A DNA stretch of 64,000 nucleotides from assembly GCF_039655875.1 (NCBI RefSeq), contig NZ_JBBYXK010000003.1, positions 496,001 through 560,000 on the forward strand, read 5' to 3'. Below the pieces are notes generated by a model. The model was not told where the DNA came from. It saw nothing but the letters and a program-made list of their open reading frames with translations, and searched no databases. The DNA comes from Emcibacter sp. SYSU 3D8 (GTDB lineage Bacteria > Pseudomonadota > Alphaproteobacteria > SMXS01). Positions 31,449 to 34,789 of the stretch are shown in pieces. Both the position numbers and the translations under genes were made by a program. Numbering within the stretch: the stretch's first letter is position 1; each line of letters begins with the position of its first letter.

Positions 31449-31816
31449 CAGCCGGACCTCCTGCCGAGGAACACCGAGACCGCCAGCAGCAGCCAGCCCA
31501 GCATCAGCGCCGTGCCGCCCAGCGGCGCCATGAATGTGGGCGTCATCGCCCCGAAGGCGCGCAGATAGAGCGAGCCGCAGAACAATACCGTTCCGAACAG
31601 GAAAGCCATGCCTGCGCCGTGGGCGATGCCGGCGCGGGCGTGACCGATGGCCAGGCCCACCGCGACCAGTGCGAGGGCGTGGGTGAAGTGATAGTGGCTG
31701 GCCGTCTCGAACAGCGACCGGGCGTGATCGTCCATCGGCACCGCGTGGCTGCCTGCCGCGCCCAGGGCAACGGCGGAAAACGCCAGCACGGCGCCGGTCG
31801 GGGTCCAGAGTTTCAT
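31448..31816 (-). CDS. DUF423 family membrane protein
   Basis: A 122-residue inner-membrane protein with about four helices and the DUF423 pattern: GAAGSHAVPMDDHARSLFET, ASHYHFTHALALV and GTVLFCGSLYLRAFG. The family includes E. coli YgdD; function unknown. It overlaps the upstream LLM-class gene by 4 bp and the downstream small gene by 1 bp. Confidence 0.85.
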   Translation of the reverse strand: MKLWTPTGAVLAFSAVALGAAGSHAVPMDDHARSLFETASHYHFTHALALVAVGLAIGHARAGIAHGAGMAFLFGTVLFCGSLYLRAFGAMTPTFMAPLGGTALMLGWLLLAVSVFLGRRSG

Positions 31817-32829
31817 GGGCGCCTCGGCAGGTTGAACAGCTCCGACAGCAATTCGTAGGACCGGAGCCTGGCCTTGAAATCGTAGCAGATGGTGAGCACG
31901 ACAAGCTCGTTGGTGTCGTAGTTGTCGGCGAACTCGGCCATCTGCTGCTTTACCTGCTCCGGCGCGCCGATGATCGAGTGGGTCTTGCGGCGGTTGATCA
32001 TGGCCCGTTCCTCGTCCGTATAGGGATAGGCCAGTGACTCCTCGGGCGACGGATAGGGGCCAAGCCGGCCCTGCTCGAACCGCAGCCGCCACAGGTCGCG
32101 GCTGGCGGCCGCGCGCAGCGCTTCCTCCTCGGTGTCGGCGCACAGCACGAACACGCCGACGCTGACCTTGGGCACGCCATAGAACCGCGACGGCCGGAAG
32201 TAGCGGCGGTACTGTTCGACAATCTCGCGGCCGCCGTCCGGCGCGATGAAGTGGGCGAACGAGAACGCCAGCCCGAACTGGGCGGCCAGCGCCGCGCTCT
32301 GGTCGCTCGATCCGAGCATCCATACCTGCGGTACCGTGCCGGGCCGCGGCGTGGCGCGGACATCGGCCAGCGCCTGGGTCGCGGGCGGCGTGTCGGTCAG
32401 GAAGGCCAGCGTGTCGGCCACCCTGGTGCCGAAGAATTCCACGCCGACCTGCGAGCCATAGGCCAGCGCCGCCGAAGTGAGATGGTCGGCGCCCGGTGCG
32501 CGTCCGATGCCCAGGTCGATCCGGTTCGGCGACATGGTCTCGAGGATCCGGAAGTTCTCGGCCACCTTCAGCGGGCTGTAATGGCTGAGCATGACGCCGC
32601 CCGAGCCGACGCGCATATGCGAAGTCTCGGCGGCGATGCGGGTGATCAGGATTTCTGGAGACGAGCCGGCGAAGCCGCTGGTGCTGTGGTGCTCGGCCAG
32701 CCAGAACCGGGTATAGCCCCAGCGCTCGGCGGCCTTGGCCAGTTCGATCGTCTCATGGATGGCGTCGGCCGCGGTGCCGCTCTCGCGGATCGGTGACTGG
32801 TCGACAACGCTGAGCTTGAGGTCGGACAT
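31813..32829 (-). CDS. LLM-class FMN-dependent monooxygenase (MsnO8-like)
   Basis: The 338-residue enzyme belongs to the FMN branch of the luciferase-like superfamily: LSVVDQSPIRESGTAADAI at the N-terminus, YTRFWLAEHHSTSGFAGSSP, VGSGGVMLSHYSPLKVAENF and RIDLGIGRAPGAD. These signatures match the family of MsnO8/YtbT-type flavin monooxygenases. It is the first gene of a three-gene coupled set with DUF423 and a 68-residue protein. Substrate unknown. The ATG follows a weak GCCGAG. Confidence 0.85.
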   Translation of the reverse strand: MSDLKLSVVDQSPIRESGTAADAIHETIELAKAAERWGYTRFWLAEHHSTSGFAGSSPEILITRIAAETSHMRVGSGGVMLSHYSPLKVAENFRILETMSPNRIDLGIGRAPGADHLTSAALAYGSQVGVEFFGTRVADTLAFLTDTPPATQALADVRATPRPGTVPQVWMLGSSDQSAALAAQFGLAFSFAHFIAPDGGREIVEQYRRYFRPSRFYGVPKVSVGVFVLCADTEEEALRAAASRDLWRLRFEQGRLGPYPSPEESLAYPYTDEERAMINRRKTHSIIGAPEQVKQQMAEFADNYDTNELVVLTICYDFKARLRSYELLSELFNLPRRP

Positions 32830-33003: not shown

Positions 33004-33138
33004 TCAGATCGCCAGGCCGAGAACCATTCCGCCGATGAATACCAGCGCGATGAACGCGTCGGCTGCGATGATCGTCACCGCTTCCACGGCATTGGCAACC
33101 GTATCGGTATCGGGGCGGTGAATCTTGAGGGTACGCAT
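33004..33138 (-). CDS. 44-residue membrane protein, paralogue of the 35-residue one next to it
   Basis: MRTLKIHRPDTDTVANAVEA is followed by one hydrophobic segment (VTIIAADAFIALVFIGGMVL). GGAG lies 5 nt before the ATG. It shares layout with the product of 33337-33444: a polar start with H-x-D-x-D/S-T, then a single membrane helix at the C-terminus. Its promoter region repeats the same 14-bp box at the same distance. No family recognised. Confidence 0.6.
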   Translation of the reverse strand: MRTLKIHRPDTDTVANAVEAVTIIAADAFIALVFIGGMVLGLAI

Positions 33139-33179
33139 TTGCTTGCTCCAGTGGTGAGTTGCGTTGGCCTCACAACTCA

Positions 33180-33217
33180 AGAATACCACCAAAGCTGTTG
33201 TGATAAAATGATCGGAA
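33180..33217 (-). promoter_or_regulatory. shared promoter box, copy 1
   Basis: On the minus strand TTCCGATCATTTTA (33204-33217) is followed after exactly 18 nt by a -10-like TATTCT (33180-33185). The same 14 bases and the same 18-nt spacing recur at copy 2. The -10 is 42 bp before the ATG. Confidence 0.55.
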
Positions 33218-33275
33218 ATATCGCTCGAGACGTGCGTATTCGCACGATGCCGCGGTGGCTGGTCCCCAGACAAGA

Positions 33276-33311
33276 GAAAGGCCGCGCCATCGTCAGACGG
33301 AGCGGCCTTTC
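33276..33311 (-). terminator. terminator of the 35-residue protein gene
   Basis: GAAAGGCCGC and GCGGCCTTTC form a 10-bp stem with a 16-nt loop. On the minus strand it is followed by a pyrimidine-rich TCTCTTGTC, 25 bp after the stop. Confidence 0.6.
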
Positions 33312-33336
33312 CTGATGCCCCCGGGGAGGGAACGCA

Positions 33337-33444
33337 TCAGCCTACGAAGGCGGTGAAGAGGCCGGCGCAGGTCAGCAGCGCGATCAGGGCACCCGTGGCG
33401 ACGTTGAGCGTGCTGTCGATGTCGAAATGACGGGTCGTATTCAT
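33337..33444 (-). CDS. 35-residue membrane protein, paralogue of the 44-residue one next to it
   Basis: MNTTRHFDIDSTLNVATGAL leads into a hydrophobic C-terminus (IALLTCAGLFTAFVG). CGAGGATAACGACC precedes the ATG. Like its neighbour it has a short polar N-terminus with H-x-D-x-D-S-T and one membrane helix, and it has its own terminator and its own copy of the promoter box. Both genes are below usual annotation limits. Function unknown. Confidence 0.55.
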   Translation of the reverse strand: MNTTRHFDIDSTLNVATGALIALLTCAGLFTAFVG

Positions 33445-33497
33445 GGTCGTTATCCTCGTGTCGTATCTCGGGGCGGGGATGCCCTTCCGATAAGAGA

Positions 33498-33535
33498 AAT
33501 ATATTGCAGGTGCGGCCGTGTTAAAATGATCGGAA
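33498..33535 (-). promoter_or_regulatory. shared promoter box, copy 2
   Basis: TTCCGATCATTTTA (33522-33535) is identical to copy 1 and is followed after 18 nt by TATATT (33498-33503). The -10 is 54 bp before the ATG of the 35-residue gene. Confidence 0.55.
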
Positions 33536-33790
33536 TATGCATAATGGGTGTGCATAAACGATCTTGATATGTGTTAAAGAAGATTGATGCGTTTCCGAAA
33601 AAGGCGCTGAAAAACGCATATAAAACGATATAAAACAGTCGGATATGTACAAAAACAAAAATACTAAGATATGCATAAATGCAATGACATAGAGGCGGAT
33701 GTGTTGCGCTGCAACACGATTCACGCCCGGTATATGCTGTCAGTGCGAGCGTGCTTCCACGCTCGACTCAAGCAGGGGAGCCGTGCATTA
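33536..33790 (+). other. AT-rich leader of the lysR gene with two perfect hairpins
   Basis: The stretch 33536-33690 is far more AT-rich than its surroundings. Downstream lie GTGTTGC/GCAACAC (33701-33717, 3-nt spacer) and CGAGCGTG/CACGCTCG (33746-33765, 4-nt loop), then the ribosome site AGGGGAG. A larger inverted repeat ATGCGTT/AACGCAT spans about 33587-33622. These could be operators or mRNA leader structures. Confidence 0.45.
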
Positions 33791-34789
33791 ATGCGGCTCA
33801 TGATTGATTGGGATGACATCCGCTACTTCCTCGCCGTCGCTCGCCGCGGCTCCATCACGTCGGCCGCGCGCGACCTCGGGGTGAACCATTCGACGGTGTC
33901 TCGCCGTATCGCCGCGTTCGAGGATAATCTGGGCGTCCGGCTGTTCGACCGGGTCGCCACCGGATACAACCTGACCCCTGCCGGGCAGGAGATGGTGCCG
34001 TCGGCCCAGCGCATGGAGGAAGAGGCGCTTGGCCTCGACCGCCGGCTCTATGGCCGGGACACCGAGCTTGGCGGCGTGCTGCGGGTAACGACGGCCGGTA
34101 CCTTCGTCAATCCGTTCCTGATGGAGCAGATCGGGCGGTTCCTGGCCGAATATCCGGGCATCGACATCGATCTGGTGGTGTCGACCGATCTGGCGAACCT
34201 GCATGCCCGCGAGGTCGACGTGGCGATCCGCGCCACGCTCAATCCACCCGACACGCTGGTCGGCCGCCGCATCGGCAGGCTGGCGGCCATGCTTTATGGG
34301 CGGCACGATTTCATTGCGCCGGGTGAGCCCGGGGCGACCAGCGCGTCGGCGGCGCCCGACGTCATCGCGTTCGAGGGCTCCGGTCGCGACTATACGGATG
34401 CAAGCTGGTTCAGCGACGTCTACCCGAACGCCCGCACGCGGGTGCGGCTGAACAATGTCGAGGCGGCGTATCATGGCATCCTGTCGGGAGTCGGTATCGG
34501 TATGCTGCCCTGCCATGTCGGCGACATCAGCCCGGAATTGCGGCGCCTGCCGCCCTACCATCTCGAGCCGGTGTTCGACCTGTGGCTGCTTACCCATGCC
34601 GACCTGAGGCGCACCGCCAAGGTCCGGGCATTCATCAACTTCATGGCCAATGCGATCATGCCCCACAAGGATCTGATCGAGGGCAAGCGTCCGCCCGGTT
34701 TCTCATCGGGCGACAGGCTCGCCGTGGACAGCGGCTATGCCGCTGCGGCCGGGATGTCCCAGGATGTGCCGGAGGACGTCAGCGCCTAG
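33791..34789 (+). CDS. LysR-family transcriptional regulator
   Basis: The 332-residue regulator has an N-terminal winged helix (WDDIRYFLAVARRGSITSAA, GVNHSTVSRRIAAFEDNLGV) and a LysR substrate-binding domain (about 95-300). The start ATG after AGGGGAG at 33791 is preferred over the long open frame from 33671, which runs through the hairpins. The C-terminal about 35 residues extend past the usual domain. It converges with the PaaI gene (4-bp overlap of ends). Its targets may include itself or the divergent tiny-protein genes. Confidence 0.9.
   Translation: MRLMIDWDDIRYFLAVARRGSITSAARDLGVNHSTVSRRIAAFEDNLGVRLFDRVATGYNLTPAGQEMVPSAQRMEEEALGLDRRLYGRDTELGGVLRVTTAGTFVNPFLMEQIGRFLAEYPGIDIDLVVSTDLANLHAREVDVAIRATLNPPDTLVGRRIGRLAAMLYGRHDFIAPGEPGATSASAAPDVIAFEGSGRDYTDASWFSDVYPNARTRVRLNNVEAAYHGILSGVGIGMLPCHVGDISPELRRLPPYHLEPVFDLWLLTHADLRRTAKVRAFINFMANAIMPHKDLIEGKRPPGFSSGDRLAVDSGYAAAAGMSQDVPEDVSA

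Follow-up and report, generated by a model that had tools for sequence, protein, structure and literature searches.

A divergent LysR-type regulator probably controls two tandem membrane microprotein genes through a shared promoter module in Emcibacter sp. SYSU 3D8

Two short minus-strand reading frames of Emcibacter sp. SYSU 3D8 are each preceded by the same 14-bp box (TTCCGATCATTTTA), which raises the question of whether the frames are genes and what would place them under common control. They lie in the window analyzed here, a 64,000-nucleotide stretch of contig NZ_JBBYXK010000003.1, and had been read in a first-pass annotation as neighboring single-helix membrane proteins of 35 and 44 residues (ORF1 and ORF2; Table 1). 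That description holds: both frames are present, with ribosome-binding sites (GAGGA for ORF1, GGAGC for ORF2) and one hydrophobic helix each (maximum KD19 of 2.01 and 2.32, respectively). We consider it probable that a divergent LysR-type transcriptional regulator (LTTR) controls these two tandem, separately promoted genes for single-pass inner-membrane proteins via sigma-70, and the locus has the appearance of a compact, self-contained regulatory unit and not of a novel promoter type.

Table 1. Features of the locus, in positions of the window.
Feature	Position	Strand	Basis or remark
Luciferase-like monooxygenase gene	31813..32829	-	Pfam PF00296; downstream neighbor, not necessarily in the unit
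ORF2, 44-aa single-helix membrane microprotein, MRTLKIHRPDTDTVANAVEAVTIIAADAFIALVFIGGMVLGLAI	33004..33138	-	Orthologs, dN/dS
P2 core promoter TTTTAT, 17 nt, TATTCT	33180..33208	-	Congener alignment
P2 14-mer box, exact	33204..33217	-	Sequence search and congener alignment
P2 dyad GTGC-N6-GCAC, center near -65	33232..33245	-	Proposed LTTR recognition site
Terminator-like hairpin 3' of ORF1	33275..33312	-	MFE -28.7 kcal/mol, z -5.5
ORF1, 35-aa single-helix membrane microprotein, MNTTRHFDIDSTLNVATGALIALLTCAGLFTAFVG	33337..33444	-	Orthologs, dN/dS
P1 core promoter TTTTAA, 17 nt, TATATT	33498..33526	-	Congener alignment
P1 14-mer box, exact, conserved core CGATnA-TTTT	33522..33535	-	Proposed LTTR activation site beside the -35
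P1 upstream operator GATC-N6-GCAC-N8-TGCA, one dyad half degenerate	33538..33563	-	Congener alignment
P0, relict module over the LTTR start: CCGC-N6-GCAC-N8-TGC, GTCGA, TGGAAG, 17 nt, CATATA	33731..33796	-	Alignment
Divergent LTTR gene, proposed controller	33800..34789	+	Pfam HTH_1, LysR_substrate

Both short frames are real protein-coding genes under purifying selection. The search for short homologs in relatives that the annotation had proposed found each frame conserved in four congeners. ORF1 orthologs are 86 to 97% identical and of invariant length in five genomes, with a dN/dS of about 0.02 to 0.3 among congeners and 6 to 12 synonymous versus 1 to 6 nonsynonymous changes per genome pair; this strong purifying selection includes the polar N terminus. 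ORF2 evolves under a dN/dS of 0.3 to 0.6 in the same comparison, and its orthologs are 59 to 73% identical in G001, G004, and G005 and 33% identical in G006. It is absent from G002 and G003, the former retaining a decayed copy of the ORF2 promoter, P2. A short predicted transcript and the strong terminator hairpin after ORF1, counterparts of which occur in G004, L049, and L050, might suggest that the transcripts are small RNAs with incidental frames, but the predominantly synonymous substitutions and constant frame length of ORF1, together with the retention, in other genera, of a hydrophobic-helix frame at the corresponding promoter, make this highly improbable. The 3' side of ORF2 holds no hairpin comparable to that of ORF1 (z 0.2).

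Neither protein matched a family in Pfam or NCBIfam, and PHROGs yielded no family either, its matches being weak (E 0.07 or worse). Profile searches of 385 alphaproteobacterial genomes returned credible matches in the same family only, the remainder being at noise level. A common H-x-D-x-(D/S)-T start, proposed from the two sequences of the source genome, did not survive comparison: one protein begins H-F-D-I-D-S-T and the other H-R-P-D-T-D-T, with unequal spacing, and the likeness is not conserved, since ORF2 orthologs read HHPDTG or HHPNTQ at this position.

The shared box fared better. Both copies of the 14-mer are exact, and each is followed after 18 nt by a -10-like hexamer (TATATT in P1, TATTCT in P2), as first described. 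The genome-wide check for the 14-mer with its 18-nt spacing returned the two known sites and no further copies; exact 14-mers in the 4.07-Mb genome are likewise these two alone, and a plasmid collection gave no match. Across the whole 64-kb window there are two exact 14-mer direct repeats less than 500 bp apart, of which this pair is one. Alignment of congeners in the correct orientation revealed a longer element of fixed spacing, with the box as its central part. The initial three letters of the 14-mer differ between species, so the exact identity in the source genome is partly accidental. Counted with TTTT as the -35, the module consists of a GTGC-N6-GCAC dyad centered near -65, CGATnA at -41 to -36, TTTTnn, 17 nt, and TAnnnT. 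GCAC occupies -62 to -59, and in P2 a GTGC at -72 to -69 completes the dyad. Spacing is the same for P1 in seven congeners and for P2 in five, the source genome included in both counts, and the P1 -10 reads TATATT, TACATT, or CATATA. A third, degenerate copy, P0, persists as a relict in congeners; in the source genus no obvious microprotein frame follows it. Window positions 33600-33720, between P0 and P1, are AT-rich with TGCATTTATGCA, conserved in several congeners, and are perhaps the LTTR gene's own promoter.

The annotation had offered either a special sigma factor or an activator as the source of shared control. Recognition of the 14-mer as a promoter element by a special sigma factor or genome-wide regulator would explain the same box at an equal distance from the -10 in both promoters, as well as the result of a sigma-70 consensus scan, which found no match at P1 or P2; that missing match is also consistent with an activator-dependent promoter. 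However, the source genome holds no other combination of box and spacing, the extended site is restricted to this locus in ten genomes, the -10 is itself sigma-70-like (TAnnnT, 17 nt after TTTTnn), and the module accompanies the LTTR gene in bacteria whose target genes are different. Several unlinked promoters sharing the element, as would define an alternative sigma factor, were found neither in the source genome nor in the ten family genomes. For want of a second locus in this set we reject the special sigma factor, which has very little probability. The activator half of the proposal stands as the better option, with the adjacent LTTR as the candidate.

Linkage between module and regulator is strict: the LTTR gene adjoins the module in all relatives that carry it. 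When ten genomes of the family were searched for near-exact copies of GCAC-N18-GATnATTTTnnCAC (one mismatch or none), all 14 matches fell at this locus, and G009 (91% complete), the sole genome of the ten without an adjacent LTTR, had zero copies. Matches to a class-wide promoter pattern (one mismatch) outside the family had, on inspection, neither LTTR nor microprotein. Two further genera, L049 and L050, have LTTRs that are 70% and 67% identical, and there the module, at the P0 position, precedes a single 33-aa membrane ORF; because the microproteins diverge fast, homology across genera rests on position and promoter. On a contig labeled Thiotrichales (L051), where the LTTR is 36% identical, the module (GTGC-N6-GCAC, CGACAA, TTTTAA, 17 nt, TAATAT) lies before a short-chain dehydrogenase gene. 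Rhizobial homologs (about 39%) carry the dyad immediately before the LTTR start, and a dehydrogenase gene is transcribed divergently. Allowing C at the first two bases and a distance of up to 45 nt upstream of the LTTR start, GTGC-N6-GCAC precedes 57 of 62 LTTR homologs versus 305 of 23606 control tiles (1.3%). GCAC-N8-TGC stands upstream of 60 of the 62 homologs and, among tiles, in 213 of 2628. Neither 57/62 nor 60/62 is a count of independent cases, as most homologs come from closely related rhizobia; the independent evidence for the dyad consists of three groups, namely the source family, L051, and the rhizobial and acetobacterial set. The module tracks the regulator and is not tied to the target gene, a pattern one would expect of an LTTR operator. 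Shared control of both genes is strongly supported. A contig titled Candidatus Kuenenia (L044) encodes an LTTR 88% identical to that of the source, and its record name looks wrong.

The recognition site of an LTTR usually lies at -65. At this locus a dyad near -65 is conserved, a second site adjoins the -35 of the divergent promoter, and the neighboring gene encodes a protein with HTH_1 and LysR_substrate domains. The classical T-N11-A core is absent, GTGC-N6-GCAC being T-N10-A, and membership of the LysR type rests on the protein domains, not on that core. Divergent target genes and paired recognition and activation sites are described for LTTRs in general (PMC8407307, PMC11739112); our locus resembles LTTR architecture in its divergent gene pair, -65 dyad, site by the -35, and site at the regulator's own start, and differs in that the targets are two tiny membrane proteins and in its T-N10-A dyad. 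We infer that the LTTR binds the module sites and activates rather than represses. An LTTR tetramer could bind GTGC-N6-GCAC near -65 plus CGATnA beside the poor -35 (TTTTnn) and, with effector bound, could recruit sigma-70 RNA polymerase to the TAnnnT -10 located 17 nt downstream. The P0 site at the LTTR's own start codon would be autoregulatory. Both proteins most likely enter the membrane, where they would act on a larger membrane protein or on a membrane property as modulators.

MgtS, MgrB, and AcrZ are regulatory small membrane proteins. ORF1 and ORF2 are like them in having fewer than 50 aa, a single helix, and tightly regulated expression, but no sequence relation to them was found, and here an adjacent LTTR is the proposed controller. 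Since the microproteins are small, conserved, and built around one helix, our best guess is that they modulate a membrane complex or some larger membrane protein. Small hydrophobic membrane peptides also make up the TimP/TimR and type I toxin-antitoxin systems (PMC7667032), and toxin-like peptides controlled by antisense or leader RNA would fit the small size, single helix, and tandem copies seen here, as well as an ORF1 transcript predicted to be monocistronic and terminated. In the sequence of the locus no antisense RNA or antisense gene was found, Rfam giving no match above the gathering score; the leader has no special structure (z -0.4), and ORF1 is constrained even in its polar N terminus. 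So strict a linkage to an LTTR would also be unusual for such modules, and we regard a toxin-antitoxin-like identity as unlikely.

Tandem duplication, the origin first proposed for the pair, is plausible for the promoters: P1 and P2 are identical at 33 to 41 of 80 aligned positions, depending on the genome, a level reached by 0 to 3 of 2000 shuffles. For the proteins it was not borne out, as profile-profile comparison did not show homology between ORF1 and ORF2 (probability 6.6%). The duplication history is thus presumably visible in the promoters, the proteins appearing too divergent to show it. A single microprotein under P0 in L049 and L050, versus a relict P0 with P1-ORF1 and P2-ORF2 in the source genus, suggests that the regulated unit was duplicated and that ORF2 was later lost in some species. 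We tentatively speculate, with some doubt, that this is a dedicated LTTR whose chief targets in the family are fast-evolving membrane microproteins, which serve as its output or exert feedback on signal uptake, with regulator and promoter fixed while the microprotein sequence is swapped and, in distant relatives, the entire target gene.

In the literature, as far as our partial coverage extends, no LTTR-controlled microprotein pair was found. The locus contributes two previously undescribed families of membrane microprotein, both showing evidence of selection, and provides a footprinted (sequence-conserved) candidate operator for an uncharacterized LTTR subfamily of rhizobia and relatives; selected proteins and candidate operator are consequently both open to direct test. 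In rhizobial and acetobacterial members (L052-L101, L103, and L105), GTGC-N6-GCAC lies by the LTTR start codon and TTTTGCACCACCGATGTGCG also occurs before the divergent short-chain dehydrogenase gene; the two elements are probably operators of this subfamily.
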